From contig JAJEKV010000084.1 of assembly GCA_021234155.1 (NCBI GenBank), forward strand, positions 1,754,545-1,818,544: a stretch of 64,000 nucleotides of DNA, given 5' to 3'. Source of the DNA: Isoetes taiwanensis (taxonomy: Eukaryota; Streptophyta; Lycopodiopsida; Isoetales; Isoetaceae). Under the pieces are notes generated by a model, which was not told the DNA's origin, did no database searches, and saw only the letters and a program-made list of their open reading frames with translations. Position numbers and translations under genes: made by a program. This document shows, piece by piece, positions 21,441-61,305 of this stretch (within the stretch, counting starts at the first letter, position 1; the number at the start of each line of letters is the position of its first letter).

Positions 21441-21664
21441 GCATATATACCTTCGGAGACCCCTTCACAAGAAAGGGGCAGCCGAGGTGCCCCGCCTGTT
21501 TTGCAAAGACATCCAAGGTCCATGTCACCATCATCTAGCCATGTCACCTAAAATTTGCCAACGTCACCCCATCGAAAAAAGACCAAAGATGGACATCTTT
21601 GGTTTTTGGCCTAGTCAAAACTTGACCTTGCTTATTTGGCATGCCATGTCACCACTTGGGGTGC

Positions 21665-24742: not shown

Positions 24743-24931
24743 AATTCTTTTGAATTGTATCATGTCTCTTCGGCATTCGGTTATTTCATTGTGTATGGCA
24801 TCCAGATCTCTTTGGGTTAATTATGTTTCATGCTTTTAGTTTCTATCCTCTATTTCCTGTTATCTTTTTCCCCTTTCTAATTGTTAAAAAATTTGCATGA
24901 CCTTTTGTTGTTTCCACCTGAATTTTTCGCA

Positions 24932-26959
24932 ATGGTCTCCAATTTACCAAAAAACCCTAAACATTTAGCTCTTTTGCATGCATTCGCGAACCTTTCCGCC
25001 TCTGATCGATCCTCAGTGCTTCAAAATCTGATTTCCTTTCAGGATCAACCTTCAGACACTATCCTTTTCGGAAACTTTGACAATTTGCTTCCTTCTTCTT
25101 CTTCAATGGATCCAATTTCTCACCGTGTTCCTCATTGGGACAATTTTTCTGCTGATCCTGACCACAGGGGTATCCTTCATCCCATAAATCCTGTTACTCA
25201 AGCCCCTGTTCCTTACGGAGTTGCTAGAGGCCATCAGGAGATCCGCTCAAACGTTGATTTGGATGAAAGGCTCAAGCGCACCACAATTCCTCATCTCAGC
25301 GACCGGAAGATGAACATCTACCATGGTATTTCTTTGAATCTTCCGATTGTCCATTCAAAAATTGATGCTTTATCAAACTCTGCTGTGATTATTAAAGTTC
25401 AAAAATGTGGTATGAAATTAGATAAATTGTGGGCCTTTCTTCTCAGCCTTCATAAAGGTATCCTTATTCAGGCTATATATTGGCTTAATTTTCCCTACAT
25501 TATGCTTGAATGTGGGAATTCTAAATCAGCCAATTTCTTTCTGAATTTTGGCCCTTTAACCTATGAGACCTCTCAATTGACCTTCCTTAAATGGCATCCA
25601 AAGCTTGACATTGATCAAATGAATAACTTATGCATTGCTTCCACGTCTTTATTTGGCCTGAATCCAATCTATTGGGATGAAGATTGCTTTAAACTCCTAT
25701 TTAACTCTATTGGAACTTATATTTCCACTGAATATTCCCCTGCCAAACCCCCCAGGAGCTTTGTTCAGCTTGATCTCTATAAAGATATACCCCTGTCCAT
25801 TCCTTTTACAGATGCTTTTGGCCATGAATCTTTATTAAGTCTTAGATGGTCTGGACTGCCCTCACAATGTCAGAAATGCTCTCATAGGCATTTCTGGTAC
25901 TCGGATTGCAAATTGTTAACAGAGAATCCTCAAGTCAACAGATTTCATCAAGCAGCTCAGGTTCCAGATAAGGATTCCAATCAGCAAGCTCTATGGGACA
26001 ATCAAATGGATCAGTCTGAAAAAAGCATTGCCATAAATGAAAACAGTGATCCCCAGTTTCAAAGGCTGCCAGAAAATGATACATTCAAATGGACAAAAGT
26101 AAATGGAAGCTACAAGAGAATCCAGAAAAACAAGGCTGCACGAGATGAAATGAGAGGCAAAGACAAAGTTCGTGAAGATGAGTTCTCAATTCCTGCAAAA
26201 GCTCGAGCCCTAACAATTGGTGAGCCAAAGCTTCTAGTCAAAGGTATTATGACTGGAAAAGCTTCTCAGGCAACTGATAAGTTAAATTTCACTCTAAGTG
26301 AAATAATTAAAGAGGCCAAAGAGGCCAAAAATCAGGAAAAAGGTCAATGTTCCAACAGTCTTATGGATTATCCTGTCAAAAACAAAAGTAAGAGTGGGTC
26401 ATTAACTACAAAATCTCGGGACAAATCTAAGTTTCAGCTGAATTCCTCTCAGGTGAATTCACATGTTAAAATAGCTGTGTCAGCAAATTTAAATCAGCAA
26501 GACAAAAAATCAGATGAGCCTAAAATGGACACTCATTTGTCCAATATCTCTGATCAAAGTACTACAGATTTGACTCAAGAGTCAGCACAGCAGCAAGTCA
26601 ACTTCAAAGTCAACTGCTCTAATCCTTTCCAGGTATTATCTGACCTTAATGGTAATCTAGATTCTGAATTAAATAAAAGCAAAAAATGTGTTTCCCAGAC
26701 TTGTCCCTCAGCTATCCATCCCTTAGCCACTTCACATCGCCATACTCAATCTGCTGGTGCAAACCTTGAAGAGTTGCCTTCCCTAATTGACCTTGACTCT
26801 CCAGTGGTTGATTACCCTATTAGCCCTCCCAAAATATCAGATAAGTTTGCTGAGCAGATGGCCTCTCTGCAAAATCTCACCTCACAAACTTCACTTCTGG
26901 AAGGATCTGCAATAAATGAGATGGGAAATGATTCTGTACCTGTTCCTGTGTGTTCCTGA
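24932..26959 (+). CDS. LINE ORF1 protein, zinc-knuckle type
   Basis: The first in-frame ATG is at 24932, giving about 675 residues. Residues ~135-310 have the layout of the DUF4283-type domain of plant L1 ORF1 proteins, including a LTFLKWHPKLD segment and FVQLDLYKDIP. These are followed by a zinc knuckle CQKCSHRHFWYSDC, spaced C-x2-C-x3-H-x5-C, slightly off the usual C-x2-C-x4-H-x4-C. The second half is Ser/Lys/Gln-rich and looks disordered. The role is binding the element RNA in the nucleoprotein particle. The frame ends within a repeated GTTCCTG motif, and a second frame (26916-27335) continues to a basic tail (TRSKRKSRKTRL) typical of ORF1 ends. A one-base slip in that repeat probably truncated ORF1. 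Confidence 0.85.
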   Translation: MVSNLPKNPKHLALLHAFANLSASDRSSVLQNLISFQDQPSDTILFGNFDNLLPSSSSMDPISHRVPHWDNFSADPDHRGILHPINPVTQAPVPYGVARGHQEIRSNVDLDERLKRTTIPHLSDRKMNIYHGISLNLPIVHSKIDALSNSAVIIKVQKCGMKLDKLWAFLLSLHKGILIQAIYWLNFPYIMLECGNSKSANFFLNFGPLTYETSQLTFLKWHPKLDIDQMNNLCIASTSLFGLNPIYWDEDCFKLLFNSIGTYISTEYSPAKPPRSFVQLDLYKDIPLSIPFTDAFGHESLLSLRWSGLPSQCQKCSHRHFWYSDCKLLTENPQVNRFHQAAQVPDKDSNQQALWDNQMDQSEKSIAINENSDPQFQRLPENDTFKWTKVNGSYKRIQKNKAARDEMRGKDKVREDEFSIPAKARALTIGEPKLLVKGIMTGKASQATDKLNFTLSEIIKEAKEAKNQEKGQCSNSLMDYPVKNKSKSGSLTTKSRDKSKFQLNSSQVNSHVKIAVSANLNQQDKKSDEPKMDTHLSNISDQSTTDLTQESAQQQVNFKVNCSNPFQVLSDLNGNLDSELNKSKKCVSQTCPSAIHPLATSHRHTQSAGANLEELPSLIDLDSPVVDYPISPPKISDKFAEQMASLQNLTSQTSLLEGSAINEMGNDSVPVPVCS

Positions 26960-27335
26960 TTTTGTTCCTGATACCCCTGAAGACACTCAAATTGTGGAGC
27001 TTCAAGAAAAAGAAAGTACCAGGCAAGTTCTTGCTTCTGCCCCTTCAAATTTTAATGTAAGCCCTATTAATATAAATCCTATGTTTCAATTCTTTCCTGG
27101 AGGATGTTTTGATTATAGTGATAATGAAGGTTTTGGGAGTGACAAAGAGAATTGGGGTAAAGAGGAATATTTAAATGAAAATCTTAGCATTGATCCTAAG
27201 CCTGAGAAGAGTCACTCTGTGAAAAAACCTTCTAAAAAGGATGGGGATAAATTAGGATTGGTCCTGTCTGGTCTAAATAAAACTCCTGCTCAAAATACCA
27301 GAAGTAAGAGAAAATCAAGAAAGACTAGATTATAA
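26960..27335 (+). pseudogene. ORF1 C-terminal extension, frame-shifted
   Basis: Open in the frame following ORF1, it reads VPDTPEDTQIVELQ... and ends NTRSKRKSRKTRL-stop 29 bp before ORF2. Acidic then basic composition fits an ORF1 tail. It is separated from ORF1 only by the slip near 26950. Confidence 0.65.
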
Positions 27336-27363
27336 ATCTTCCTTTTCCATCTTCCTCTTTATA

Positions 27364-30300
27364 ATGAAGATTCTTTCTTGGAACCTTAGAGGTATAAAAG
27401 GTCCTTTGAAAAGAAGAAGGGCTATTGCTCAAATCAGGATGTATAATGCTGATATAATCCTTCTGCAAGAGCTTAAGCTTGCCTCTTTTGAGTGTAGCAA
27501 TTTGGGAGATTGAATCTACCCTTCTTCGTCCTCAATTTGGATTAACTCCTCTGGAGCTAGTGGTGGTTTAGCCATTGTTTGGAAAAAAGACATTAAGCAT
27601 TCCTCCTTTTATAACAGCCCATCTAGAGCTTGGCAGGCCATGATCTGCTCTGTATCAAATTCCAGCTTTGGAATCATCAATATTTATGCTCCTACCTCTC
27701 CAAAAGATAGAGAACCTATCTGGAGTGAAATTAATAGCTGGTTGGAATCTCAAACTATTGACAATTGGATTGTTGCTGGAGATTTCAATAATACCCCCTC
27801 TTGGGATTTTAAGCTGGGAAATAAAATTAATATGTCCACAACTGAAAAAGAGAACTGGGACTTGCTTATCTCTGATAATAATTTGATTCATATTCCCTCT
27901 TCTACTGCTACCTACACTTGGTCTAATAAGCAAAAAGATAGAGCAAGGGTTTACTGTACTCTTGACAGATTTTATGTTTCCAATCCATCTACAGCCTTTT
28001 GGGATAATAGTTATGTAACAAGTGATGAAGGAACCTCTATTTCTGACTACCAGCCTCAGTTCCTTCATACCTCCCATGTCATCAGGATTCAAAGAGAAGG
28101 GAGCACTCCTTATAAATTTAATTCTTCTCTTCTTGAGAATGAAAATTTCTACTCCCAACTCAAAACTTTCTATGATGAGCTTACTAATAGGTTTGCTGAC
28201 AATTCTATGCCTCCTATGAAGCTTTTTTATTCTAAAATCAAGGAAGTCAAAAGATGGATTAAGAACTGGTCAAAGCTTATTAAGGATCAGTGCAGCAAAG
28301 AAAAAAACCAGCTTCTCATGTATATGAAGGAAATTAGATCCTTACTTCAAAATGATCCTTCCAACTCTAACCTTCAAGTAGGGGAAGAAATTCTTGAGAG
28401 AAAAATTAAAAATATTGAGGAGATTGAAGCTAAAGGCTCTGCTATTAGATGCAAGATCAAATATACTAATGATATGGACTCTGGCTCCTCAGGATTCTTT
28501 TTCAGGGTAGCTAAGAGTAGGGTTCTTAGAAACTCTATATTGATGATCAGGATATTAAATATAATTCTCACTCTGACATTGCAAATTTCTTCAAGAGCAG
28601 ATACGTGGACCTTTTTAAAGGCAAACCAATTCCTCCCAATGCGATCTCGGATGCAAATGACTTCTACTCCATAGTCAATAATATTTTACCTGATCCTCTT
28701 GAAACCATGGACGAGTCTCTGACTGCCATTCCTTCTCATAATGAGATTTTTGACACTCTCAAGTCCTTTAGTAATGGTAAATCTCCTGGACCTGATGGTT
28801 TCCCAGCTGAATTTTATATCAAATTCTGGGATATTTTCAGAAATGACTTGATCTCCTTAGTTACTGCCTTCTGGAATTCTAATCATCTTCATCCTTCTAT
28901 TTCCAGTGGCCTGATCTCTTTGGTTCCTAAGGTTGATCACCCCTCAAAGTTTCAAGACTGGAGACCAATCTCTCTCACAAACACTACCTATAAACTTTGT
29001 GCCAAGATCATTGCTCTCAGAATTAAAAGCTTTCTCCAAAGAAATATTAGCCCAAATCAATCTGCTTTTCTTCCAAATAGATATATTTTGGATAATTATG
29101 TGGCTGCTATGGAGGGACTGCATTGGAATAAAATCTCTAATCAAAATTGCATTCTCCTCAAATTGGATTTCAAGAGAGCTTTTGATTCTGTAAGATGGGA
29201 TTTCTTAGATTTTGCTATGTCCAAAATTGGTTTCCCTCCTAAGCTTATTAGTCTTATTCATGGTCTGAATGCTAGATCGAACTCAGCTGTTCTTATCAAT
29301 GGTGTCCCTTCTGGTTTCTTTCCTCTTTCCTGTGGAGTGAGGCAGGGATGTCCTCTTGCTCCTTTCCTATTCTTAGTGGCTGCTGAGCTTCTTACTAAGG
29401 TCATCATGCATTATCAGAATTCTACTCAATTAAAAGGTTTAAAACTTCCAAATTCCAGTGATAGCATTACCACTCTCCAATATGCTGATGACACTTTCTC
29501 CTTTCTTGATGCTGATCTTATGAACATCAATCTTTTTCTCAAGATTTTAGGTCAATTCTCTGCTGCATCTGGTATTCATCTGAACTTGAACAAGAGTATG
29601 ATTATTGGAGATATCAGTACTCCAACTTTAGCTGGGATAAATGTTCTTCCTTCCAATCAGGCAACCAAACTTCTAGGTATGCCTCTTGCTATGGACCATA
29701 GTATCAAAGGCCTTTGGGACCCTATCCTCTTGAGAATAAAAAAGAAACTGAATAATTACAAGAATTATCTTTCTCTTGCAGGCAGAACTATTATTGCTAA
29801 TGCTGTTCTTGCTAGCTCACATGTATACTTCTCAACAGCCTTGGTGGCTCCAAAATGTGTCTATTTGGAGCTTGAGAAAGTCCTTAGGAACTTTATTTGG
29901 AAGGGTAGTCACTTGGTCAACTGGAATTCTATCTGCAAACTGAAATCTTCTGGTGGTTTAGGATGCAAAAATCTCTTCAGACAAGCACAAGCTCTTGCTG
30001 GTAAGTTTATATGGAAATCCATTCATGGAAATCCTTCCCCTGCCTGCAATTTCATCAGATATTGGATTTCTCTGAGTCATCCTTATGGTCATCCCTCCAT
30101 TCAGCACTTGCTCCCTCATTCTGCCTTCAATCAGCTAAGACCAGCCACTAATATCTCCCCTCTTATGTGTAATCTTATCAAGGCTTGGAATGCTATCTCT
30201 CCTAACTTCCAATTTATTGCTAGGAATAAGCTTCATGCTGATACTACAATTTTCTGAAATCCTATTTTAGTTGAGCAGAATTGTCCTGTTCTTGCCATTA

Positions 30301-31160
30301 AGCATCCTAGAATTTATAAGAAGTGGTCTGAGGCTGGATTTTTATATCTTAAAGACTTGATTATTGATGGAAGAGTTATCTCTTGGACTAGACTGAAGGG
30401 TATTATTAGAGGTACATCATCTGATAAGAAAATCTATGCTCTTATCAAACCTTTTCTCACAAACTTATCCCCCAATCCAGATAGAATTGATTGAACCATA
30501 AAGGGAAAAGGAGTTTACAAAGTGAAGAATGTCTATAATGCTATGTCCTCTAACATGGATAATTGCAAAGCTTTGCTCAAATGGTCTATTTCTCATGATC
30601 AGCTTAGGAGTCTTTTTCATAATGTTTGGAATTCTTATTGTCCTCCGAAAATTTCCTATTTTATCTGGCTCCTAGCTAATGGCAGTCTGAATAATCTGGT
30701 CTCTGTTTCCAAAAGAAATCCTAACATCTCAGCAAATTGCCCCTTAAATTGTAACAATCTTGAGGACATATCTCATATTTTCTTTTGTTGCAAGTTGGAT
30801 GATTTTTGGACCTGGATTGCTGCTAAATTTGGTATTGTGACTAATGGAGATCTTCTCTCCCTTATTCAACATAATGATATGTTTACAAATTCAATCATTT
30901 ACATTGCTCTGTGGAATATTTGGAAAGCAAGAAATCGGGTGTTATATGGTCATAAGAATCCTTCTAACTTCTGGATTAAGATGCACTTTCAGTTTGACTT
31001 TGAGACTATTGCAACTACACATAAAAAGAAATTTGGTGCTAACTTTGACAGGAAATGGGAGGTCTTTGGGCAGTTTAGGGGACATTATAGTTTATTTGCT
31101 TCAAACCTTAATGTTGTGGATTCTAACTTGTTTCTCTCTGATGATCCTAGAGTACCTTGA
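27364..31160 (+). pseudogene. LINE ORF2: APE endonuclease, reverse transcriptase, zf-RVT
   Basis: It starts ATG at 27364 (MKILSWNLRGI, the usual plant L1 ORF2 start). The endonuclease has LLQELK and AGDFNN (about 27775), but the SDHxP motif reads SDYQP (His codon CAC changed to TAC at 28047), losing a catalytic His. The RT has GKSPGPDGFPAEF (about 28780), FKRAFDSVRWDF, GVRQGCPLAPFLF and YADD (29481-29492). A zf-RVT region lies at 30.5-30.9 kb (KISYFIWLL ... HIFFCC). Breaks are TGA at 27511, a one-base shift near 28535, TGA at 30255 and TGA at 30492. ORF2 products nick DNA and prime reverse transcription; this copy cannot make an intact one. Confidence 0.92.
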
Positions 31161-32088: not shown

Positions 32089-34131
32089 GTGAACACGATC
32101 AAAACCCGTTTTGTGAAGAGAGATTGCAACTCTAAACGACATCTTATTACTAGCAGGGACAAATCTAAAACCAAAGTTGTGCATAGCACTTTCTTCTCAA
32201 AATCCTTGGAAAATTTTAGCGTTCGTGGGATTTTTAAGGAAGTCTTGAATTAAGAAATTCCACTGATAGCGGATGAATTATTGGACAGTGCACTCTTTGG
32301 CTGGAAATATATTGACCAGATTAAGGACAAGGTGTATAAACCTTATGATGTCTTTGCTATAGACAGACCCAAAAAATGCCCTTGTAAGAATCCGAGCCTA
32401 TCTAAGTTCATTGATCCTAAAATTAATCATGTAAGAACCATGGACCTTGAAATTATCCACTGCCCCAAACTCAAGACGGCTTTTTTAAATGGTCTCAACC
32501 ATATCCCTGACTGTGGTTTCTCTTTGGATATATTTATGATTGACATTGAACATACATGTGATCAGTTCTTATCTACTCATCGTTTCAGCCCATTACACCT
32601 TAATGAAAGTGAAGTTGAAGTCATAAAACAAAAAGTGTTAGCCTTGGCTAAGGTCAAGATCATTGCTCACAAAAAGTGTTCGAAACCTAAGAGATTCTTA
32701 TGGGATGATGGGGAAGTTAAGAATAACTTGTTATGGCTGGAGAAAAATCTGTATATCTCTGAATTAGATAAAGCCAGCAATAACGCTTCATTTATCTGCC
32801 AATGGCATATCAAGGAAATGGCCTTGCTTAGACTCAACAGCTCCGATTTTGAAACTATATCCCTCAGTCCTGATGTGGTAAGGAACAATTGTGTCCTTGA
32901 TATTTCAAATTATCTTTCCCTTCAAACACCCTCGAGTGTTAAATTTCCATACCTTATGGGCATTTTTCAAGCCCATAAAGGTGAATATAGGTGGCTGACC
33001 AACGCGCATAATACAATATTTTCTGAAGTTTCGGATTTGTTGACTGCTATCTTGAATAGCTTTATTGATTTATGGCCAGAAGTCTGCCATTGGAATAGTG
33101 CCCGATTAAAAATTTGGCTCAAAGATAAAATTAACCCATGCTGGATGGTGACTTCCTCTTTCGACTTTGTCTTGAATCTCCCTAAAAAAATCTTTGATGT
33201 ATTCTCAATTGATATCACCAAATGCTATGAGAATTTACCCTTAGATGGTGAAGATGGTGTGATGGAAATCATGAAAGATATAGCTGGTCTTGTATGGGAT
33301 TTCATGGCTCAAAAGACACCTCTGGCGCAACTGGCTATCTGTAACAGAAATGGTACTTTTACCACCAAATGGTTAAAAGTGGACAAGGGCACTCAAAACA
33401 AATGGACGACCATCTCAAGAGAGGATTTTGCCAAGATTAGTGATTGGTTATTATGCCATTGTTTTTTACAAATGGGTGGAAAAATTTGGAGACAAAAAAG
33501 AGGAATTCCTGTGGGATTTTCTAGTAGTCCAGCTTGGTGCAACCTCTATTTGGCATGGTATGAACTTAGATTCATTGTAAAACTTGCAAAGCTTAATAGA
33601 GCTTCAGAGATTCCCAGATTCCAATATGCAGCTAGGTATATTGATGATCTCAGTATTTCCAATGGAGGGGATCTGAGAGAATTTTTCTCGTCAGACTCAA
33701 ACATCACCATTTACAATCTTGAGCATCTAGGTATTAAGGATGAGACTATTTACAGGATGAACTCCAAAGTTGGATACAAGATAAATTTCCTTAATGTCAC
33801 CATCGAAGTCATGGATCCCAACATTGGATTATTCCAGTTTTACAGATATGATAAAAGGACAAAATTAAATTTCGAGGCTAACAAATTTATAAACAAAGCA
33901 TTATCCTTTAAGCAAGCTACTTCAAATACATCTAATTTAATATTGTTATTTAAGTGCTTGACCATTGAATTTAAAGCCCTTTGCACATTATTATGTATTA
34001 TAAACTCTTACATTTCTATCTCTGTCAAAGGAACCCCTCCCCCTCCCCCTCCTCGCATTTACCCTCTTTTGTTCCCTTCCCTTTCTTTACCCCAAGCCTG
34101 CGTTACTGCTAGTTTTTTTTCTTTCTTATAA
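32089..34131 (+). pseudogene. Penelope-like element reverse transcriptase, no endonuclease domain seen
   Basis: The frame is open from a possible acceptor (TTTGTTTAG, ending 32088), has one in-frame TAA at 32251, then runs 616 codons from 32281. Counting from 32281, a Cys-containing CPCKNPSLSKFIDP block lies at ~37-50 (the PLE pre-RT signature), SIDITKCYENLP at ~308-319, RGIPVGFSSSPAWCNLYL at ~405, and the catalytic RYIDDLS with YIDD at 453-456. The thumb is FYRYDKRTKLNF...INKALSF. Y-I-D-D with the GIPVG loop fits Penelope-like RTs, relatives of telomerase, and not LINE or LTR RTs. The end after ~580 (poly-Pro) is read into the 3' non-coding part. No GIY-YIG domain is visible before or after. 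Confidence 0.82.
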
Positions 34132-38705: not shown

Positions 38706-38935
38706 GAGGTGAGGTGAAGTGTAGTGTATTATTTCGTCTTTTGAGACCATTAGGTCTATGAGACGTCTAGAAAAACATGTTCAAAGTTAAAAACATTTTC
38801 ATGTGATGAGCCCTCAGAAAAGAGAGGCTCATCATCAATCTCACTCTCCTCTTCCTCATCAATTATACCTCTAGATATATTTACAATTGACTCTCGCAGT
38901 TGTAGTACATCTATTAGAAAACTTGCAATACGGGT

Positions 38936-40537
38936 GTGACGTCCCCTACTCATATACGGTGCACTCACCGTATACGAACAGGAGTTCATCCCCCATACCA
39001 GCTCCATACTGATACAGGGCCCTCCACGTATCACTGCAACCTTGGTGAGTTCCAGTGGGAAGAATGAAGGGGTCATTTACCCTGTCTCCCTCAGGGCCTA
39101 CCTAGCTGCGGAAGCGTAAACATACATGTCAGTATACAACATCAACATCACATACCCATCTCGAAGGATGGCACATCACATATCTGCATAGACAAAGATC
39201 AGTACATCACATATGGAATCCTACCCCAGGCTCAGACTCAAGGGCACGACTGACGGCTTGGGTCTCCAGAGGTCATTGCAGACAGAATTCATGGCAAATG
39301 GATTTGGCTGGCATAAGAACATGGCTTAGGGTTGTCCACTCCATCCGCCCCTCCTGTGCACACTTTGCAGAGTAGGTTGAAAAGTGTTGGGACCTTACTG
39401 TAGCCAGGGGCTATTCCTGGGTTGCATCTCCCCAGTTCCGATGGGGCAGGTAGGGATCACTCCCTCCAGAGATCTACATGCTGATTCAAGGTGACTAGAG
39501 GGCCACTGCCCTTATTCGACTTGAACCCAATGGAGAGTGACGCATCACTCCACGGGTGTCGAGCCCATGCCTTGCCCACACGCAGTGGCAAGCCATTAGA
39601 CCTAGTCCACAGGAATCCCCGGTAGGCCTTACACACCAAAGGGATCATTCTCATGAGTCAGGACATGAACCTCCTTATGAGCCAGTCTGGTCCCTTCACC
39701 CACAACCAGGTGTGGTTCTTGTACACAGGCCGAATTTACAGTGCGCTAAAGAGGCTAGCTAGGAGCATCAACTACTAGGCTTTAAGGTCTCTACCCCCCT
39801 TCCCAATACAATGAGTTCACAGAGATACATCATCATATACATATCACAGAAGAACTAAAGAACAAGATCTAATCTAAATCACAGAGTTAGGTTCTTTAGT
39901 TATGGCTCGATATCTAGAGATCTAGATGGCTGCTATAGGCAAATCAATAGGCTAAACCTACTTATTCTATGTCTGGGAGGCGATTTAGGCTATTGATTTG
40001 GCAAAATACCTGATCCTTGGCTTGCTCCTCCTGCTCTGAACTCGACCATGCTGCAGAACTGCTTGAAGATGAAGCTAGAGGGGAAAACTGATGGCCTAGT
40101 CTGCAGAGACAGACTTTGGGAGGCGAGATGGGCTCTTGAAGCAAGCAAAACAGAGCCCTAGAAGCCTTTAGATGAAAATGGAAAGTTAGGGTTTCCTAAG
40201 CCTATATAGACTAAGGGTTAGAGCTAGGGTTCCCACTATCCCCTTTAGGCATGTGGGATAATTGGATGTGGCCCCACTTATATTAAATAAGTGGCCTAGG
40301 ATATCCACATGGATAAATGTGTACACATGGATAAATGTGTACACATTGACACACACATGGATAAGTGTGCACATGAGCAAATGTGCCCATAATTAAATGC
40401 ACACACCTTGCAAGTTGCCTCCTAGGGTGCTTTTGCTCGGCTACGCGTCGGCGTACACATCAGTCGGAATGGCGTGTACGCGTGATGAGGCAGTACAGTA
40501 TACGTCTTAGGACTGTATACTGTGCTGGAACGTCACA
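38936..40537 (-). repeat. 3' LTR (complete), 1.6 kb
   Basis: On plus coordinates it starts TGTGACGTCCCC and ends GGAACGTCACA, so both strands have TG...CA. It is flanked on the inner side by the complement of a polypurine tract. It contains strong inverted repeats: ATACGGTG-CACT-CACCGTAT (38956-38975), GCGTACAC...GTGTACGC (about 40449-40480) and a 13-bp arm pair around 40492-40528. Tandem CACATGGATAAATGTGTA units lie at about 40303-40360. Confidence 0.8.
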
Positions 40538-40551
40538 TTCTCCCCACCTTG
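40538..40551 (-). promoter_or_regulatory. Polypurine tract of the LARD-like element
   Basis: The minus strand reads CAAGGTGGGGAGAA directly before the LTR start TGTGACG. This is the plus-strand DNA primer during reverse transcription. Confidence 0.7.
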
Positions 40552-43500
40552 AAATGATGCTGTCCACAGTATCGTGGGTCTCCCCACCTTGGGATCTTCT
40601 GAACCTGCAATCAACTTGATGCATACAATTTATTATTATTATACTTACACAATTATTCGAATTACTCTAAGGTAATGTTTAAGACATTACTGTACTATTT
40701 CATTATCCAATTAACTTATCACTTCATAACTTAATCAACGCAAGGTAATTACTAACCTTACTTAATACAACATTTAAGTTTATCAAAGTTTATCAATTTC
40801 ATACAAAATTTACACTTCCAAGGTACTCTTCATCCCTTGCAACACGTTATAACAAAATTTGTGTTGCAAGTCTTTGCACCTTAAAATCCTGCATTAATTT
40901 TACAATATCTATAATTACATACTTACTAGCTTACACAAGATTTAAGCGATTAGTTTCAATGGTAGAAATCACAACTACTCTAGAACTATCTATACAAGTG
41001 CTCGTGATGCGACTCCCCACCGGTTCTTCGTTCTCATTGGCCTCCTGGATTCACACCTCGCTAGAATATTAATGTAAAGTTGGTTATAAGGGAACCACTC
41101 CATCTATCTACATGAATGCATGACTAATCTCCCGGCATAGGAAGAGGATGCTTCTTCCATCGTGGCCGTGGAGACAGCGCCCTATAATGCCTATATGCCG
41201 CTCATGCCTACACCTTTAGTTGCCTGAGACGTGGAGGATAGGGTCCTTCCCGTATTTGGGCGTGAAGGATAGGGTCCTCCCCGTAGGCATTGACTAGGGG
41301 TGCTTTCCTATCAAGGCATTCCTGAATGACCTCTTATCTCTCGAGGTCGTCTACTTTCGTGGGACGGAAGTAGACTTTTTAATCTACCTTCCAACTCATC
41401 CAAGCAGAACCGCGGTCATGTCTACAATGACATTACACCACGTCCTAGAGATCACCGTAGTGGTCCCATCATCGGTAAATACGCATGCAACCCATACCTA
41501 GCATAGGCTGCATGCGTAGATTAACTTGAAACCTGCATGATTTCTGCTGGCTCCTTTAATGCATGCGATTAACATAATTACCCTAAGGTAATATTTATGA
41601 ATTAACATTATCATAGTATCGGATACATTACTTCCGATAGTACAATTATATTTACTCTAAGCTTTACAATATTTAATGACTTTTAGATCGCGATTATTTA
41701 AACAATAACCCTGATTTAGACCTATTGTTACATAGACAAGGTTTTAATTATCATACACAAGAATTAGATGTGCTTCTTATTCTCTTCCTTGGGTCCTGCT
41801 GCATTACCCTTGGAAGTATATCCCTAAGATGCACTTAAGTATATCTGAATTCTATTTTCTATTTATATTTATAAGGACCCCAAGGTCATATAGCTAACCT
41901 TGGAAGGAATTGCATCCTTGCGAAGGATTAATTAACATGGTACCTCACATTATCGTTGTTATTTAACTTATTTCCCTATGATACATATACGTACGGCAAC
42001 TTCTATGCAGTTATTAGGATCTATATTTAACTTATCAATAAGACACATTAAAGCTTATAATACATGCGCACACCTTACCTAAGGCTAGAACGCATCCACC
42101 CATTGAGCCGGCGTGGAGTAATTTGGAGATGACTTGGTCGTTGCATTGCTCCCATACTTTTGCTCCACTTCATTGGTGTAGTTAGCTACCACGTCAGTCT
42201 CGCACGTTGAAGGCCTCCTGTTCATTCGTTTCGGCTCTATTCGGTCAATTCGATGGCCCTTCAATCCTTAAGATGCAAGTACATTCAATTATAAGATTGA
42301 GCCCCACCACTTTCTTCGAAAAGAAAATGGTCCCACACCCCTTCAATGACGTTGTACACAACGTCATATCTATTCTCCCTTAAGAGGTTATACGCTTCTT
42401 ACGTAGCGCATTAATTTACTAGCCTTAGCTAACATATATAACCATCTAAGATGGATGCACATATTATGTTATCATTTATTTCAATATAATTATGGGTTAC
42501 CTACTTAGTTAGAACGATTCTAAACCACAAGGTTTTGTCATCATGACAATTCCTTTTGTCTCAAAAGACTATTTGATTACTATAATTCTTATTTTAGATG
42601 TACCTTGCATGTACTATTGTTTTATATTCTAGATATTCCCCCTTTCTTAGTTATTTAAACTCTTGGAATATTCCTACCAATCGAATTGATGCCATCGTAA
42701 CAAGTTGTTAGATTACTTCTTTTCTTTCGGTTGGATTATTCTTTTGGAGGTACTAGCTTTATACATGGTCAACAATTATCCTACTAATGATTCCGTCTTA
42801 GCGAGGTGATCAATCTCACCAAGTGGTTTCAATATGTTGGATGTCTGTTAACAATCGTGTATAATTTTAGTTACTCCTATGCATTTCCTTCCCAATCCTT
42901 GACGCTTAGCTCAATATTGGGGCAATCCTTTCAGCGAGAATATCTGGAAATGCCTTCTAATCCCAATATAGATGTTAGCGTCCATACATTTAACCTACCA
43001 GGCCCCATGGCCTTAGATCCTTGAGCTTGCTAGAAGCTCATCCACTCGTTGCCTGCTTGAAGTAGCAAGGTAACGTTCTTTCGAGTCTCTCAATACTTCA
43101 GTCTCCTTGATAGTGGCTCCTCTTTGATGTAGAGGTTGACTTTGTTCGTTAGAAGCCTCTCATTGCTGGTGGCTTGATGGTGTAGTTGATCACTTGAAAT
43201 CTTCCATGCCGCTTTTCAAAAGCCTGGATGAAAAAGATCTTTCATCTTGAACTCTTTGTCTTGGCAACTAAAGGACGACTCTGTATCCGATATTGTTTCT
43301 TCGACTCCATCGACGTCTCATACGTCGAGTCCTCTTGTCGTTATTGTGTTGCCCGAAGAGTCTTGAGGATGTTGATTGCTTCACCCCTGCAAATTGCCTG
43401 ACATCTCTTCCTTTGATCTGTTACGCTATGGGAGGGAAGGAATAACAAGGGAACTATATATGCAAAGCATATAGCTTACATAATTACAATTACTACTAGA

Positions 43501-43600
43501 GCTATTAGGTCCCCCTTGTGCCTCCCTTCGAGTTGCACATCTACTCCTTGGCAATGTCATCGGTGTTCCTCCCGGTGCAATGGTGTTGACGATCTATATC
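40552..43600 (-). other. AT-rich internal part of the LARD-like element
   Basis: No ORF above ~75 codons has meaning on either strand. Short repeated ATTAC and TTAATTA motifs are frequent. I see no pol motif (no YVDD, no integrase DDE pattern). Confidence 0.5.
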
Positions 43601-46002
43601 CTCCTATTTGTACGTCAGCTCCGGTGTTTGTCGGCTATGGCACAACACGCTTTGCATCACATTCTAACTAAAGGTGTGCTGGTCGTTGATGCTTCGACAT
43701 TTCGGTCTGCTTCCTGATCCTGTTCTTGGGCGGTAATTGTTCCTCCTTCATGATACTTGAAGCTATTTGGAGGCGTCTCTTGAGGCTGTGCTCGATTCCT
43801 TTGGCTATACTCCTCTGGAGTTGTTCTCTTCTGCAGTTGTTCTTTGAATCGTCGATCCTTGGGTTCACCAAGTTGCATGCAAGTCCGCGTGCAAGTCATC
43901 GGCTCGGCTCGCCTAGTTGCTTCTCCATCGAGCTTCCAATCTTACTTGTTTGATCCCCTCGATCACATGGCTTGGACGTTGTCACGTTCCACAGTGCTAT
44001 GCCGTCTTCTTGTCTTGAGGTACCTTCCGGTGGCTTTGATTGTGTTCTCCAGTTTTGATCCGCCTGTTGCCTCTAGGGGGCTCGTGGAAGAAGTCGGTTG
44101 CTAGCACTTCTCTAGCTTTCAGTTCCTGACCTTTGTCCCTCTATGCATGTCGGTCTGGCAAGTAAAGCATCATGGCTCTCCTCCCTGCTGGCTATGTTGT
44201 CGGGATGATGGGTCCTTATATCTGCGCAACTTGACCCTTGAGTTGAAGAAGTACCTACCTTAGATATACTCTTGTCGTTGAATAGCCTGGCTATTATCTT
44301 GAACTCTCTTTTGCCGAAGGTGCTTCAGTTGCTATCCTCGTCGTTAAGGTGTCGAATGCTTCTACCTTGGGCGTTTGATGTCCCACATGTCGGAGGTATG
44401 ATCGGCTTCTTCTTTTCTAATTACTGGTAGGAGTACCTGACGAAGCCATCACCTAGTTGTTGAAGGCATATCTCCTCGTCGCGGTGCCTTTCGTATGTGC
44501 ATCTCCATCTAATACGCGTGTCATAGCGCATCACCTTATATTACCACAGGGTGGAATTATGGTCGTCGAGATGTTGCCTTCTTAGTTGGCTCGTTGATGT
44601 CGGGTTGTTCCTCCTTCTATTGTTGAGGCCACTCGTGTCATAAGTTCGTCAAGTGTTGCCGCTACCACAAGAGGTAGTGTTGCACCCTGACGATGTCCTG
44701 GTGCAGCGCTGATGATCTTGACATGACCGATGTTGTCTCTTATTCTGACATTGGGTGGACGAGCGGTCTTCTACTTGAGGGCACTTCCCTGAGTGTTTGG
44801 AATCGAAGGTTTGCTTGGGCTCTGGTCGTTTCTCCCTCGTACTTGCTCTTCCATTTTGATCTTGGGCTATAGGTGTGCTTCCTTGCTTCCTCCTTTGGTA
44901 GTCGAAGTGAAGGAGCTTCTTGATCTAAGCACTAAATCCGTAAAACATGACTCTAAACTCATGTTCCTCCACTATATATATGAACACCCGAGATATACAA
45001 TAGACATATACGCACTTACATTGGGATTTTAATTCATCCGCTTTTCCAAAACAACTACGAAGATCTACTTAAATGTTTATACTCCTTTAGGGTTTCCCCT
45101 CCTCCTATCGCGATTGATTCTTCGGTTTTGTTGCATCTTCTTCGTTCTGGTTGACTCCGGGATTCCTTGAGATGCTGCTACTATTGTTGACCTTCATGTC
45201 TGATCCGAGCTCGTCACCCCAAGTTGCGAAGAGTGTTCGTCGATGTGATCCCTTAAAAAAGATGCTCCTCCTTAATGTGTATGTCCGTTGTGAGGAATGC
45301 GGTGACCGCTCAACGTCCCTACATGCGGTGTGTCGTTGCAAGGTTGCCGATGTGCGGTGCCGTTGATCGCTTGAGTAGGATCACCTGGCTGTTGCAGTCG
45401 GGCATTCTTGAATGTCTTCGAAGCTTTGAGATCGTGGTCGGTAGACAGGCATTGTCATTCCTTCGCAGATTGAATTTCTGAGTGCGACTTCTGTTGCTTG
45501 GGCTTTGCTTCATTCCGAGGTGCCTCTCCTGTTCCTGGAAGTGTGGTCATCTCCATTGCATCTACCATAGCTCCTTCTGGTCGCCTTTGCGTGATTTGTA
45601 CCTGCTGGCTAGGCCGTCTCCTTCGTCCTTTGGGTCCCATCCATTCGAGTCTCGCACTCCTTGGCTGACGTAGTAAAGTCGTCCTTCCTTTGGTTTCTAG
45701 GTGTTTCTGGGTCCGGAATTCTTGTTCGAGCGGAATATTCTCCTCCTTGATCTTGCCCCTAATGTTGATATAGGCCTTCAAGTCGAAGATGTTCCTTCCC
45801 TGGTATACGTCTCCTCCCCCTCGTGGTCTCCTACTTTTTGGAACTGATGAAAGTTTTCCTGCTGGTGCAAGGGAGCTGGAAGCTCGTCCTGGTCAGCCTT
45901 AGGTGCTTTGTGGTTGCCTAGCTTGGTTGCTCCTTTTGTCGACGTTGCATGACATTCGCTTGAGCTGCTTGACATATCTATAATTTTCAAGTCTATGGAC
46001 AT
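43600..46002 (-). other. Broken charged ORFs, possibly decayed gag-like sequence
   Basis: Minus-strand pieces at 45778-46002 (SSSSSECHATSTKGATKLGNH...), 45455-45781 (GPKGRRRRPSQQVQITQRRP), 45105-45341 and 43657-43899 are rich in Gln, Glu, Arg and Thr and overlap or abut in different frames. They could be remnants of one long hydrophilic ORF in element sense. No CCHC knuckle or other motif is seen, so identity is open. Confidence 0.3.
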
Positions 46003-46613
46003 TAGGACGTGTGGTATGGCATGAAATGAGGTTTGTTTTACAAGGCCCTCATGGTGTTTGAGGCATATTCTAAGGTCCTAGCAAAGTTGGTTTGGAGGGG
46101 GAGGGGGAGGTCCAATCTCTATACATGGAGTGACTTGGGCAGCTCTAGACTCTAGCTCCTTTCTAGGTATCCTGGCAATAGGGAGTGTCAATGTGGCGGC
46201 TATATAAGTCAAACTCTATTAGAAGGGCACAGAATTAGGTCAAGGGTTATGTCTTTGGCATGAGCAGAGGTGATGTAGGAACAGTTGAACTTGGGTTGCT
46301 ATGCTGAGGTCTAGATGACTATAACAAAGGGGTGTTCTTGAGCACTTCTATCTAGGAGTAAGGCATCAGTTTTGAGCCGAGAGCAATACTTGCAAGATAC
46401 TAATGGGGTATGCTTCTATTTACAAACAAACCACAGTTTGGAAAAACAATTCAAGGGTTTTGAGCAATTTCGGTCATTTTGAGCTGAGGTTTGACATTTC
46501 TAGTCTAATTTGACGTCATAAATGGATTCTAGACTATCTAACAGTCCTATTGCAACAAATTTCAGGCGATTTGGAGCTCTGTAGCTCAAGTTATGGAGGT
46601 TCAAAGTTTGGAT

Positions 46614-46680
46614 GTCTCATGGTGTGCGCTGGGTGGCAAAACCAAAATCTGGTTTTTGGCCTGGGCGCATACCGTGAGAC
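46614..46680. repeat. 67-bp hairpin, copy 2 (distal)
   Basis: Arms are GTCTCATGGTGTGCGC and GCGCATACCGTGAGAC (two G/T-type mismatches), with an inner AAAACCA/TGGTTTT pair. It is the same structure as 47184-47250. Confidence 0.8.
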
Positions 46681-46777
46681 ATTGGGCACTATTTGGCCTA
46701 CAAATGTCCAAATTTACTAAAACAAAGGGCAATTGTTGCTAATTCGACCTAATTAACATCAATTATGCACATATAAC

Positions 46778-47008
46778 TTACAACGAAACACTTTGTTCTC
46801 CTTTAATGTGGCTGGCGAGGTGCATGTCTTTCTTCATTAAGGTCACCCTCTTGGCGTGTACAGTGCAGACTGTTGAGTCTTCAAAATGTTGGACCAGCTT
46901 CTGCTCTGCTGCTTCTTGAACCTTGGCCTCCCGCTCTCGTTCTGCCCTCTCCTCTTCTTGTATCTCCCGCTCTATCTGCTCGTACACTTCTTGGATCTCT
47001 TCATCCAT
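46778..47008 (-). CDS. Charged coiled-coil ORF ending in a histone H3 C-terminal segment
   Basis: The ATG at 47008 (open back to ~47073) gives 76 residues. Residues 1-30 are a Glu/Arg-rich helix (EREIQEEERAEREREAKV). Residues 31-72 align with histone H3 residues 93-134: QEAAE, LV, FED, C, HAKRVT, M, KD, LA, I, GE are all in place (25 of 42 by hand alignment to canonical H3). The H3-H3' contact residues C110, H113, R116 and D123 are kept; P121 is Lys. H3's tail, alphaN, alpha1 and most of alpha2 are absent. It lies 438 bp after the primer site in the element's sense direction, where gag normally begins. A captured H3 exon is the simplest reading; function is unknown. Confidence 0.75.
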   Translation of the reverse strand: MDEEIQEVYEQIEREIQEEERAEREREAKVQEAAEQKLVQHFEDSTVCTVHAKRVTLMKKDMHLASHIKGEQSVSL

Positions 47009-47183
47009 TGAACCCGGAGGTCCAATGTCCTCTTCCTCCAGTGCTTCCGTTGATCCCTGGGATCCCTACTCCTGGGCTGGCTGGGCCTAACTAATCTAAC
47101 TAATCTATCTAATTCTTACCTTAAAACTCGATCTAGCAGGTTAGCTCGTTACATCGTCATGTTTCAAGGTGATTATGACCCAT

Positions 47184-47250
47184 GTCTCACGGTGTGCGCT
47201 GGGAGGTAAAACCAGAATTTGGTTTTTGGCCTGGGCGCATACCGTGAGAC
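47184..47250. repeat. 67-bp hairpin, copy 1 (leader)
   Basis: Arms GTCTCACGGTGTGCGC and GCGCATACCGTGAGAC pair at 15 of 16 positions, and inner AAACCA/TGGTTT arms extend the fold. It lies about 200 bp downstream of the primer site in element sense, where packaging or dimerisation structures sit in LTR elements. Confidence 0.85.
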
Positions 47251-47445
47251 CTTTGTTACTTTAGGTCAAATTTTTTTTTCAACTTTTTAGTTTTCTTGGT
47301 TCTTCAATTCTTCTAACTGTTATTAGTTTAGCATATACTACAAAAATGAGAAAAATTTTCCCACTTTTTCGAGGTTTGAGAATCCTACTAAGTTAGTACT
47401 ACTGGGAGCATGGTCAGTGCTTTGCTCTTGGTCACCAAGAACATT

Positions 47446-47457
47446 GCTCTGATACCA
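47446..47457 (-). promoter_or_regulatory. Primer-binding site, initiator-Met tRNA
   Basis: The minus strand reads TGGTATCAGAGC one base inside the 5' LTR. This is the complement of the 3' end of plant initiator methionine tRNA and the commonest primer site of plant LTR retrotransposons. Confidence 0.92.
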
Positions 47458-47458
47458 C

Positions 47459-48093
47459 TGTGACGTCCCCTACTCATATACGGTGCACTCACCGTATACG
47501 AAACAGGGCCCTCCACGTATCACTGCAACCTTGGTGAGTTCCAGTGGAAAGAATGAAGGGGTCATTTACCCTGTCTCCCTCAAAGCTGCGGAAGCGTAAA
47601 CATACATGTCAGTATACAACATCAACATCACATACCCATCTCGAAGGATGGCACATCACATATCTGCATAGACAAAGATCAGTACATCACATATAGAATC
47701 CTACTCAAGGGCACGACTGACGGCTTGGGTCTCCAGAGGTCATTGCAGACAGAATTCATGGCAAATGGATTTGGCTGGCATAAGAACATGGCTTAGGGTT
47801 GTCCACTCCATCCGCCCCTCCTGTGCACACTTTGCAGAGTAGGTTGAAAAGTGTTGGGACCTGACTGTAGCCCGCCGGATGCATAGCCAAGGGGGCTATT
47901 CCTGGGTTGCATCTCCCCAGTTCCGATGGGGCAGGTAGGGATCACTCCCTCTAGAGATCTACATGCTGACTCAAGGTGACTAGAGGGCCACTGCCCTTAT
48001 TCGACTTGAACCCAATGGAGAGTGACGCATCACTCCACGGGTGTCGAGCCCATGCCTTGCCCACATGTAGTGGCAAGCCATTACACCTAGTCT
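47459..48093 (-). repeat. 5' LTR, truncated
   Basis: It matches 38936 to about 39608 with few substitutions but several deletions and insertions (for example ~36 bp near 47500 and an 18-bp insertion near 47877). Similarity stops abruptly at about 48093, so the outer, promoter-bearing part is missing. 48094-48489 shows nothing I can name. Confidence 0.8.
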
Positions 48094-58330: not shown

Positions 58331-59022
58331 ATCAAAGGGTCGTCCAACTTTCTTCATTACGATGACGGACGAATACGGATTGGCGAGAAATAAAGGTGCT
58401 CTTGGACACGACCGAGAATGCATCGATATACCTATGATTTGTAATGCGATGTTTTCATGGAAGGTTACAACGATTAAAGAGTTGTTACATAAATTTTTCC
58501 AACGCATATCATACATAATAACTTGGTGGTGGAGTTCCAAAAGCGAGGACTTCCACATTCACATCTTTGTTACGTCTTGAACGGATATACCAATAGAATG
58601 TGTTGATGAAATTATATATCTGAGAACTACCTAGTGATCCAATTCTTGAGCACGGGTTGAAAAATTCATGATTCACAGACATTCTAACGGATGATGCCCC
58701 CACGTAATTCTTCTTGCTGCTATAAATATCCAAAACTAGTTAATCCAACGACACACCTTGACTCTAAAGGCTACGTACAATACATGAGGAGAAGTATAGA
58801 TGATGCTTGGGTAGTTCCATACAATGCATTCCTCCTCCAAGAGCTCGATTGCCATATTATGGTTGACATTGCATCCACCGTGCATGTCTTCTCTTATCTG
58901 TATAGTTATATATATAAGGGTTTTGATACTGCGAGATTTCAGATAACCCAAGATAGGCATACAAATGCAGATTTGTCGTCGGGTCCTGAACAACGAATAG
59001 GCGGGCCACGCAAGATCATATG
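58331..59022 (+). pseudogene. Helitron Rep (HUH) domain, frame-shifted
   Basis: GRPTFFITMT is followed by EFQKRGLPHSHL, where H-S-H (58555-58563) holds the HUH metal-binding histidines. After another break come YKYPK, PYNAFLLQELDCHIMVDIA and YLYSYIYKG (Tyr codons 58895-58913), the Rep tyrosine motif. Rep nicks one strand and starts rolling-circle-type transposition. The order of motifs is normal, but at least two frameshifts separate them, so no intact Rep can be made. Confidence 0.88.
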
Positions 59023-61305
59023 AATAGCGAGCATACAAATAGTGGCGTAGGCCAATGTTTTGATGACGTTCCACAAGGGCATGCCACTAGAGCAAATCCT
59101 AGAAATGAGATACATGAGTACCTAAAGGCACGCTATCTTTCTACCACGGAGGCATCTTGGAGAATAATGTCTTACGACATAACAAACAAGAGTCCAGCTG
59201 TTAAATGTCTACCTTTGCATTTATTGCGACCAAATACGAGATCATTATTGGACAGGTACTTTCTACGACCTCTTGATCAAGTATTTAATACACTTACATA
59301 TATCCAATACTATGAACAATACACGTTAACAACATTTAATCAATCTCTAGCATCTGAAGCTGGATCTTACATAGAACAGGAGCAAGAAGGATTTACGCAA
59401 AACATTGTGAGGAAAAGGACGAGGCAACCATTAGTATGTAGGATACGTTTACTATTACCTAAGGTCGGTGAGGCGTTTTACTTAAGACAAATTTTGTTGC
59501 ATCGTCCTGCAAGGACATGGGGTGAATTAAAGGTTGTTAATGATCAATATTATGAAACATATCAACAGGCTGCAGAAGCAGAGGGTCTGCTTGCAGCACA
59601 CAATGAAGCAATGTTGGTTATGGAAGAGGCAGTTTCTCTATCATTGGGCCCTACGCAATTACGTTTTCTTTTTGCCATGTTACTACTTGACCAGGGACCA
59701 GCAATCGATCTATGGACCCAGTTTCAGGTGCCTATGAGCCTCGACTTATTAGACGAATATCCAAATGATGATGTGATTGCTTTCAATGAATCCCTGCATT
59801 TAGTCAATAATATTCTAGTTCAGCACGGCACTAACATCATGGCGTTCGGCCTTCAGTTGCAGCATCGTCTTGGACGAGATGTAATGCATGAGCTAGCAAA
59901 ATTTTCGGATCACTCATCATATTTAAATTCTACATTGCAAATGTCAAGTATTATGAATGACAACCAGTTGGAAATATTTAATTTCATAAGGCAATGGTTA
60001 GAGTCTCCTCAAAGCAATGAACCCATCTTTGTAGATGGAAAAGCTGGGACAGGAAAGACATTTGTCTTGAAATGCATATGCTTTCTCATACGCGGCAACA
60101 AAGGCATAGTTCTTCCATGTGGTACGACGGCACTGGCAGCTCGGTTATATTCAGGCGGGCGAACAACACATTCCCTGTTTCAAATTCCTGTAGTTGAAAA
60201 CAATGCCGGCCTTCATTCGATGTTAGAGCATGATTCGGGAGCAGCACAACTCATTATTGAAGCCAAGGTCATTATCTGGGATGAGTTTCCAATGGCTAAC
60301 AAAGCCGTTATAGAATGTGTAAATCATGCGCTCCAACGATTGTGTGGAAACAACCTTCCTTTTGGTGGAAAACATTTCATAGCTGCTGGTGATTTCAGAC
60401 AAGTTGCACCTGTCGTGAAGGGTGGAGGGAGGATTGCAGCATTCAATGCATCTATAAAATCATCGTCATTATGGAGAGTCTTTCGTGTCTTGAGGTTGCA
60501 TCAGCCGATACGAAATGCAGGAGATCCAGAGCTCATGTGTTTTGTTGACAATCTTGGAGAGAACTGGGAACAAACTACAGTATCATTGAATTTATTCAAT
60601 ATAACTACTAACATTGCAGATACAGCTGAATTCCTTTATCCTCCAGATGTTCTTCGCAATCCAATGGAATGCGACAAACGAATTTCCCTCGCTCCGATCA
60701 ATAGACACGTTGATGACTTCAATGGTCGTATATTGAACAAAGTTCCTAACCAGGATAGAAAGTATTACAGCCATGATCATATTACTGAACAAGATGAACT
60801 CATCCATGATCATCCGTATGCGACTTCAGATTTCTTAAACAATTTCACGCACTCTGGGATTCCTAACCATGAACTTAGACTTAAGGTGGGGGCAATTTGT
60901 CACGTGATGAAACGATTAGACATGGAGAAGGGTCTTGTGAAGAATGCTAGAGTTGTGATCGAATCGATGCATGCAAAGTTTGTAATGGTGAGAGTCTTGG
61001 GTGATCCGGAAGGGAATACTTACCCGATCTCAAGAACAGATTTCTTCTATCAACCAGAAAATCGTCCATGGACTATTCATAGACGACAATTACCACTCCG
61101 ACTTGCATATTCAACCACATTCAATAGTTGCCAGGGTTTAACATTGGATCGAGTGGTCATTGACTTGCGTACAAATGTCTTTGCACATGGTCAATTATAT
61201 ACGGCCTTTACTCGTGTACGAAACAGGCAAGATGTGCTAATCCTCCTCTCCCCAGAGAATACGACAAGAAGTACAGTGAATGTCATCTACAAGGATTTAC
61301 TCTAG
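59020..61305 (+). CDS. Helitron PIF1-family helicase domain (761 aa)
   Basis: This is the longest intact frame of the Helitron. The N-terminal part still belongs to the Rep-helicase linker (EIHEYLKARYLSTTEASWRI). Helicase motifs: Walker A GKAGTGKT (residues 340-347), Walker B IIWDEF (Asp-Glu near 421-422), GDFRQVAPVV (~457), LRLHQPIRN in place of the usual L-x-x-N-M-R, and LYTAFTRVRN (~728, motif VI). PIF1/RecD2-like helicases unwind DNA 5' to 3' during Helitron transposition. Because Rep upstream is broken, this is a C-terminal half on its own. Plus strand, co-linear with 56.4-59.0 kb. Confidence 0.92.
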   Translation: MNSEHTNSGVGQCFDDVPQGHATRANPRNEIHEYLKARYLSTTEASWRIMSYDITNKSPAVKCLPLHLLRPNTRSLLDRYFLRPLDQVFNTLTYIQYYEQYTLTTFNQSLASEAGSYIEQEQEGFTQNIVRKRTRQPLVCRIRLLLPKVGEAFYLRQILLHRPARTWGELKVVNDQYYETYQQAAEAEGLLAAHNEAMLVMEEAVSLSLGPTQLRFLFAMLLLDQGPAIDLWTQFQVPMSLDLLDEYPNDDVIAFNESLHLVNNILVQHGTNIMAFGLQLQHRLGRDVMHELAKFSDHSSYLNSTLQMSSIMNDNQLEIFNFIRQWLESPQSNEPIFVDGKAGTGKTFVLKCICFLIRGNKGIVLPCGTTALAARLYSGGRTTHSLFQIPVVENNAGLHSMLEHDSGAAQLIIEAKVIIWDEFPMANKAVIECVNHALQRLCGNNLPFGGKHFIAAGDFRQVAPVVKGGGRIAAFNASIKSSSLWRVFRVLRLHQPIRNAGDPELMCFVDNLGENWEQTTVSLNLFNITTNIADTAEFLYPPDVLRNPMECDKRISLAPINRHVDDFNGRILNKVPNQDRKYYSHDHITEQDELIHDHPYATSDFLNNFTHSGIPNHELRLKVGAICHVMKRLDMEKGLVKNARVVIESMHAKFVMVRVLGDPEGNTYPISRTDFFYQPENRPWTIHRRQLPLRLAYSTTFNSCQGLTLDRVVIDLRTNVFAHGQLYTAFTRVRNRQDVLILLSPENTTRSTVNVIYKDLL

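Follow-up and report, generated by a model that had tools for sequence, protein, structure and literature searches.

The closest precedent for a transposable element with a histone H3 gene is fungal: H3-like (H3L) genes are described on hAT DNA transposons of Pyrenophora tritici-repentis (PMC3538342) and on hAT transposons of the genera Pseudocercospora, Cercospora and Sphaerulina (PMC6710886). For plants, the available text of a study on Ty3/gypsy retrotransposons describes extra ORFs (eORFs), mainly in the Ogre/Tat/Athila (OTA) clade, and portrays the extra ORFs of plant LTR elements as largely divergent, with functions that are in doubt (PMC6317226). The capture of host genes by plant LTR retrotransposons is documented for Bs1 of maize and, with 1343 captures, for sorghum (PMC7264820, PMC13317346). 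Here we describe H3-bearing LTR retrotransposons in the genome of Isoetes taiwanensis.

The H3 segment was recognized in a short minus-strand frame of the window, i.e., the whole stretch of 64,000 nucleotides that was analysed (Table 1). The product counts 76 aa from its Met codon at position 47008, and the original prediction of an H3 C-terminal segment was borne out by a histone-profile search (Pfam PF00125 [Histone], 37.7 bits, cut-off 26.4, E 2.9e-9) and by 25 identities over 43 positions (58%) in the span from V/LQEAAE to GE. The best solved relative is histone H3.1 (8kcb_F, E 9.2e-12), presumably of plant origin, and both E values led us to reject a chance resemblance. Only the last 43 residues are H3-like; the frame is devoid of a complete alpha-1/alpha-2/alpha-3 fold and its inspected translation lacks the N-terminal tail ARTKQTARKS..., in agreement with the predicted loss of the tail and the early helices. 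The residues C110, H113, R116, and D123 of the H3-H3' interface were correctly reported as kept, since all four are retained in the alignment. The Glu/Arg helix in front also stands in place of H3 sequence as predicted: an alignment with H3 alpha-1 in register 0 scores 16 (p 0.005 against shuffles), but a shift by +4 scores 20, so that no register is special and a hidden alpha-1 was rejected. Within the H3 piece, H3 and rice CENH3 tie at 25/43 and Arabidopsis CENH3 reaches 23/43 (CENH3 sequences of these two plants, not those of the host). A simulation of neutral drift with a matched difference count yielded stop-free sequences of equal score in 45-71 of 3000 cases from an H3 donor and, with the CENH3 sequences as donors, in 55-73 (Arabidopsis) and 249-338 (rice) of 3000; it is only suggestive and outweighed by the dN/dS and pN/pS tests presented below. 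No relatives were found in IMG/VR.

Table 1. Features of the H3-bearing LTR element, ordered along the minus strand (positions refer to the window).
Feature	Position	Strand	Basis
5' LTR, truncated at 48092	47459..48092	-	self-alignment with 38935-39607
Primer-binding site TGGTATCAGAGC	47446..47457	-	sequence
79-nt hairpin repeat, copy 2, other flank of the H3 ORF	47182..47260		fold z -7.9
Stop-to-stop frame with H3 segment	46778..47065	-	95 codons; stop = 46778-46780
Met and charged Glu/Arg helix ahead of the H3 segment	46922..47008	-	translation
H3 C-terminal segment, 43 residues (H3 ~92-134: part of alpha-2, L2, alpha-3)	46793..46921	-	Pfam Histone; pN/pS
79-nt hairpin repeat, copy 1, one flank of the H3 ORF	46612..46690		fold z -6.8
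Internal region without recognisable gag/pol	40551..46777	-	Pfam scan of frames
Purine tract adjoining the 3' LTR, likely PPT	40538..40550	-	sequence
3' LTR, TGTGACGT...ACGTCACA	38935..40537	-	self-alignment; near-equal limits in siblings, e.g. 38935-40538 in L018

The ORF sits within a non-autonomous LTR element of 9158 bases (38935-48092, minus strand), which reads on this strand as 5' LTR, primer site, H3 ORF, ~6 kb of internal DNA, purine tract, and 3' LTR. Its primer site, which we take to be of the initiator tRNA-Met type, confirms the predicted distance of 438 bp to the ORF. The two LTRs differ by 14 mismatches in 624 aligned bases and by several gaps. A Pfam scan at E<=0.01 of the 66 stop-to-stop frames of >=45 aa that overlap positions 40544-47459 revealed no gag, protease, RT, RNase H, or integrase domain, thus indicating that the element is non-autonomous and presumably moved in trans; the non-histone matches in these frames (DUF1244, E 0.0026; UvrD_C_2, 0.0067; PRP1_N, 0.0087) are taken as chance. 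Paired LTRs, a primer site and a purine tract are the features of an LTR retrotransposon, and LTRs around a long internal region without element genes are those of a LARD. Large retrotransposon derivatives of this kind have long LTRs, a PBS, a PPT, and an internal region of several kb that lacks gag/pol. The window element is like them in each of these respects and unlike them in that it bears a short ORF in which a histone segment is conserved.

Two copies of a 79-nt repeat (89% identical), each a near-perfect hairpin with the ends GTCTCACGGT...ACCGTGAGAC, lie on the two sides of the H3 ORF, and several sibling copies of the element show alignment gaps at these sites. Elsewhere, the window contains an L1-like LINE with long open frames and endonuclease, RT, and zf-RVT domains (24881-31157, plus strand), a frame of 625 aa that has a YIDD motif and matches RT weakly at E 3.9e-4 (32254-34128, plus strand), and a frame of 771 aa that encodes a PIF1-like helicase domain and probably belongs to a Helitron (58990-61302, plus strand). 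Degenerate repeats at 15278-22793, arrayed both in tandem and inverted, form its G+C-richest part (50-52% in 14001-22000 versus 35-48% elsewhere).

Window-type copies (family 1) are abundant in the genome of I. taiwanensis, which was searched over 1,658,258,908 bases in 1110 contigs. Among the best 150 of 8384 candidates, partial matches included, 124 are free of stops and 26 carry one (counted by eye), in a ranking by score that favours good copies. Fifteen sibling loci were compared with the window element (9158 bases), and the length that each of them covers ranges from 2757 to 9091 bases. The primer site is exactly retained in 14 of the 26 distinct loci, the window's included (counts without L009 and L010, which duplicate L002 and L005). 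The frames vary in length: some have 92-95 aa as in the window, others 69 aa, and those of ~109 aa bear an H3 tail similar to ARTKQTAR; this tail-like start lies inside the printed frame of six of the 26 distinct loci, with L in place of K9 behind it. L012 and L013 (both 1-9901) harbor window-type frames of 176 and 197 aa with a mixed-charge stretch before the H3 part, a hint of a longer ancestral protein. A listed H3 match is located 297-448 bp from 10 of the 40 family-1 LTR sites and farther away, within 20 kb, from seven more; the remaining 23, without an H3 match within 20 kb among the matches listed, may be solo LTRs, ORF-less elements or neighbors of unlisted copies.

The pN/pS of the family-1 H3 part is 0.152 in the 26 distinct copies (bootstrap 0.095-0.242). 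Its diversity is concentrated at third codon positions (0.219 versus 0.061 and 0.057 at the others), and the wrong frames give pN/pS values of 1.1-1.7. No constraint was detected on the Glu/Arg helix (pN/pS 1.9, bootstrap 0.58-5.6; last 13 codons, family-1 copies). Judging from these substitution patterns, constraint has acted on the H3 part of family 1; the ORF of the window copy may by now have become a relic.

A whole H3 fold was found in a second set of elements (family 2). The plant H3 query retrieved from the genome 15 canonical matches and 135 with 71-86% identity (best 150 of 9064 candidates). A stop interrupts six of these 135 matches (counted by eye), and 51 of them are part of open frames that are at least 400 aa long. 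The DNA motif for MPKDLALA of this H3 version has 719 exact sites in comparison to none for the reversed control. The protein is the first ORF behind the primer site (ORF1), located before the presumed gag-pro-pol of a coding family that is probably of Ty3 type. In eight copies (L039-L046), a domain 255-298 residues long is joined through a basic linker (52-61 residues) to the H3 fold (H3 residues 37-135), which ends at the stop. The original prediction had placed the H3 ORF where gag would start; this position must be corrected, because the coding relatives hold an extra ORF there, ahead of gag. All four scanned copies match Pfam Histone with 137.5-143.6 bits, and in the same four copies the N-terminal domain has no Pfam match over the cut-off (weak ones E 0.029 or worse). 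The 60 PDB matches listed for this domain are all histones that aligned to the start of the H3 fold, and its search against the own genome returned at least 121 scored matches of 5524 candidates, with open frames of 352-567 aa. The H3 tail ARTKQTARKS... is absent from all eight copies, and the linker in its stead contains 12-15 K/R versus 2-4 D/E. ARKS or ARKT is present in the linkers of L042, L044, and L045, PRKS in L046, and AHKS or AHKA in the other four; the ARKS-type motifs resemble the surroundings of H3 K9/K27, which may be due to chance. A general expansion of histones was rejected, since H4, the histone used for comparison, lacks any such proliferation: the H4 query found 16 full-length and 27 lesser matches (43 of 69 candidates) and no multicopy long frames. 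Most H3-like sequences in such a genome are retrotransposon-borne, which calls for caution in annotation.

The fusion ORF is unequally conserved along its length. In the eight copies the median dN/dS (NG86, unsaturated pairs) amounts to 0.032 for the H3 fold (21 of 28 pairs), 0.115 for the N-terminal domain (16 of 28) and 0.232 for the linker (25 of 28), at a dS of ~0.9 in the fold; the closest pair, L039 and L041, exhibits a dS of 0.117 and zero amino-acid changes in the fold. The pooled in-frame pN/pS is 0.058 for the fold and 0.260 for the N-terminal domain with L046 left out (0.080 and 0.353 with L046), in comparison to 1.2-6.3 in the wrong frames overall and 1.9-6.3 for the H3 fold in five wrong frames. 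L039 and L046 share 34% of the N-terminal domain and 85% of the fold. As far as substitution patterns can tell, this shows that retrotransposons of I. taiwanensis encode an H3-fold fusion under strong purifying selection. The fold aligns with the host H3 in 99 gap-free columns, of which 25 differ in at least one of the eight copies. All eight copies retain the host H3 residue at 19 of the 22 DNA-contact positions and at 12 of the 13 H3-H3' positions, under an assignment to these classes that we assume to be correct. The host H3 protein itself, identical in the 10 loci read of 15, carries Y41, S87, and L90.

The synonymous sites of the fusion fold and host H3 are saturated (pS 0.86-1.00), which documents that the capture of H3 is old. 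A single recent capture of a host exon, the alternative offered by the original prediction, was accordingly rejected on the grounds of these saturated sites in the coding relatives and of the many diverged copies; the window piece is 58% identical to H3. CENH3 is distinguished by a loop 1 longer than that of H3 and by its own C-terminus, and it was rejected as the likely donor of the fusion fold because of the gap-free alignment with host H3. The nearest PDB chain of L046 is named H3.3 and presumably of plant origin (184 bits versus 176.7 for H3.1 8kcb_F); this match may be a hint of H3.3 as donor, not a proof.

The localization of ORF1 within LTR elements is supported by its neighborhood. ORF1, ORF2, and ORF3 are common to L039 and L040 in the same order and strand, and the composite order of family 2 is ORF1-ORF2-ORF3-gag-like-protease-RT (ORF1-3 in two loci, protease and RT in L039). 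The gag (E 0.044) and protease (E 0.086) matches of L039 are both under the Pfam cut-offs. Its 96-aa RT piece has Ty3 RT as nearest solved relative (E 3.2e-15), and the stretch of L039 up to this piece is the basis for the Ty3 placing. The second best genomic match of the L039 LTR is 93% identical and lies beyond ORF1 at a distance of 11.6 kb, and another case of LTR-ORF1-LTR was found on C1038. The spacing is constant among the matches listed: the 5' LTR is 1639-1664 bp from H3 in five and 743-767 bp from the N-terminal domain in three, and the 3' LTR follows H3 at 8715-10006 bp in six. A listed ORF1 match lies within 25 kb at 16 of the 40 family-2 LTR sites; the other 24, without one, may represent solo LTRs, ORF-less elements or unlisted copies. 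No hAT domain was detected in the 66 frames of the window element or in 14 scanned pieces of L039, L040, L043, and L046. ORF2 (L039 3255-4661, minus strand, 468 aa; L040 5304-6783, plus strand) has no Pfam match over the cut-off. With a dN/dS of 0.071 (one pair, 276-aa overlap) it looks to be under selection as a second conserved protein ahead of gag.

The primer site of family 2 is decayed yet occupies the same place, and part of its LTR is 74-83% identical to the family-1 LTR over ~125-157 bp. The two families thus look related, with the window ORF apparently in place of ORF1. The window H3 piece is equally close to host H3 and the L039 fold (25/43 each; L046 24/43), and the H3 parts of both families may be separate captures.

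The explanation that we lean towards sees in the window ORF a reduced member of a group of retrotransposon-encoded H3 proteins, the fold of which would associate with H4 of the host and be incorporated into nucleosomes or attached to chromatin. The element's own domain would then stand in for the modifiable H3 tail, and either the element's complex or its DNA would be tethered to chromatin or the element copies would obtain nucleosomes that lack the usual K4/K9/K27 sites. Of the H3 fold, the window element has kept only part of alpha-2, L2, and alpha-3. From the pattern of kept residues the fusion is apparently nucleosome-competent, and we infer chromatin entry or tethering through host H4 as its likeliest function. 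Entry into nucleosomes is favored because the DNA contacts and the H3-H3' face are both kept, while the binding of one partner would not need both. This argument cannot be extended to family 1, because alpha-1 and most DNA-contact residues are missing there. The interpretation given in the original prediction is thus supported in part: the interface or chromatin role is consistent with the constrained H3 part of family 1 and fits better to the coding relatives with their whole fold and a dN/dS of ~0.03. More tentatively, we propose that the elements make their own tail-replaced H3, which would be built into nucleosomes with host H4 and thereby write part of their own chromatin state, either as an escape from tail-based silencing or for the marking of preferred insertion sites and anchoring to them. 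Such a histone would not be cargo but would belong to the life cycle as one of its conserved steps, with window-type elements keeping only the half that faces H3' and the chaperones.

Two other roles of the fold are the main alternatives to chromatin entry. It might act inside the particle and, together with the linker, condense the element's RNA or cDNA like a nucleocapsid without ever entering host nucleosomes. The retained DNA-contact residues, the basic linker (12-15 K/R versus 2-4 D/E) and the placement of ORF1 ahead of gag would suit such packaging, which we nevertheless regard as unlikely: the H3-H3' positions are also retained, a DNA packer need not keep a dN/dS of 0.03 across its whole fold, and a separate gag-like region, if weakly matched (E 0.044), follows downstream. 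More doubtful still is a decoy that binds H4 or the chaperones ASF1, CAF-1, and HIRA and weakens chromatin deposition or silencing by the host. Among the alpha-3 positions to which we ascribe chaperone roles, 122, 126, 129, 130, and 133 are as in host H3 in all eight fusion copies and 125 and 134 differ, and the window-type protein retains mainly the C-terminal H3 part; such a decoy would, however, not account for the DNA contacts that the full fold retains, and position 129 is altered in the window copy. That the fusion ORF belongs to a host gene family merely adjoining retroelements is very improbable. Its H3 fold is host-like, but 719 MPKDLALA sites, the constant LTR spacing in the listed cases with two instances of LTR-ORF1-LTR, and the same downstream ORFs in two loci, one with protease and RT pieces, speak against it.

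For the H3 piece of family 1, we consider it evenly balanced whether it is a decaying relic, in which case the constraint would go back to an earlier ancestor with coding capacity and the 76-aa frame would be without present function. The window element is otherwise non-coding, the charged helix is unconstrained, the start of the frame varies among copies and stops occur in 26 of the 150 best matches. In the two recent clades of family 1, variable sites number 7, 9, and 16 for the first, second, and third codon position, a weak bias (p 0.04), and the seven copies of the window's own clade have 1, 2, and 3, which is not significant (p 0.32). Against decay stand the 124 stop-free sequences among the same score-ranked matches and the third-position excess across the 26 copies.

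The genome of Isoetes taiwanensis contains hundreds of copies of elements with an H3 of their own, which selection has left nearly unaltered. The H3 domain of ORF1 is recognisable, structurally understood, and strongly conserved, which makes its role testable, unlike that of most extra ORFs. If nucleosome entry is true, a selfish element would supply a core histone and thus have a route to evade silencing or pick insertion sites, and the elements would represent a natural experiment on the extent to which the H3 tail can be replaced. In line with the original prediction, whose author knew of no described LTR element of this layout, no LTR element with an H3 ORF was found in the titles and abstract openings of the open-licence papers listed for this subject. 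The term "histone" is absent from the main texts of a review of additional ORFs (PMC7264820) and a review of gene capture (PMC13317346) and from the available main text of the I. taiwanensis genome paper (PMC8566536), and it appears once, with respect to chromodomains, in that of PMC6317226.

ORF1 shares with eORF-5'F both its sense orientation and its location in the 5' part of the retrotransposon. The eORFs named in the available text comprise the plant mobile domain, Transposase_28, and Athila ORF-1 (PMC6317226), whereas the Isoetes ORF1 contains a highly conserved H3 domain. Bs1 and the sorghum captures likewise have host sequence within an LTR element; unlike these, the Isoetes H3 fold is lasting, selected, and common to many diverged copies, a case without equivalent in the available text of PMC7264820 and PMC13317346.

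The chromodomains of chromoviruses can bind methylated H3. The Isoetes elements share the link to H3 chromatin with chromoviruses, Ty3 elements whose integrase bears chromodomains (PMC6317226, available text), and differ from them in that they encode an H3 fold themselves. The closest resemblance is that to hAT/H3L, because in both systems a transposon took up an H3 gene and multiplied it, and a non-autonomous short form is also described in the available text for Pyrenophora (PMC3538342). The fungal system is a DNA transposon with an H3L gene, whereas in Isoetes an LTR retrotransposon carries the H3 fold fused to an element-specific domain. According to the available text of both fungal studies, the H3L copies are highly similar in Pyrenophora or inactivated by RIP in P. 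fijiensis; those of Isoetes are anciently diverged, with a fold under purifying selection.
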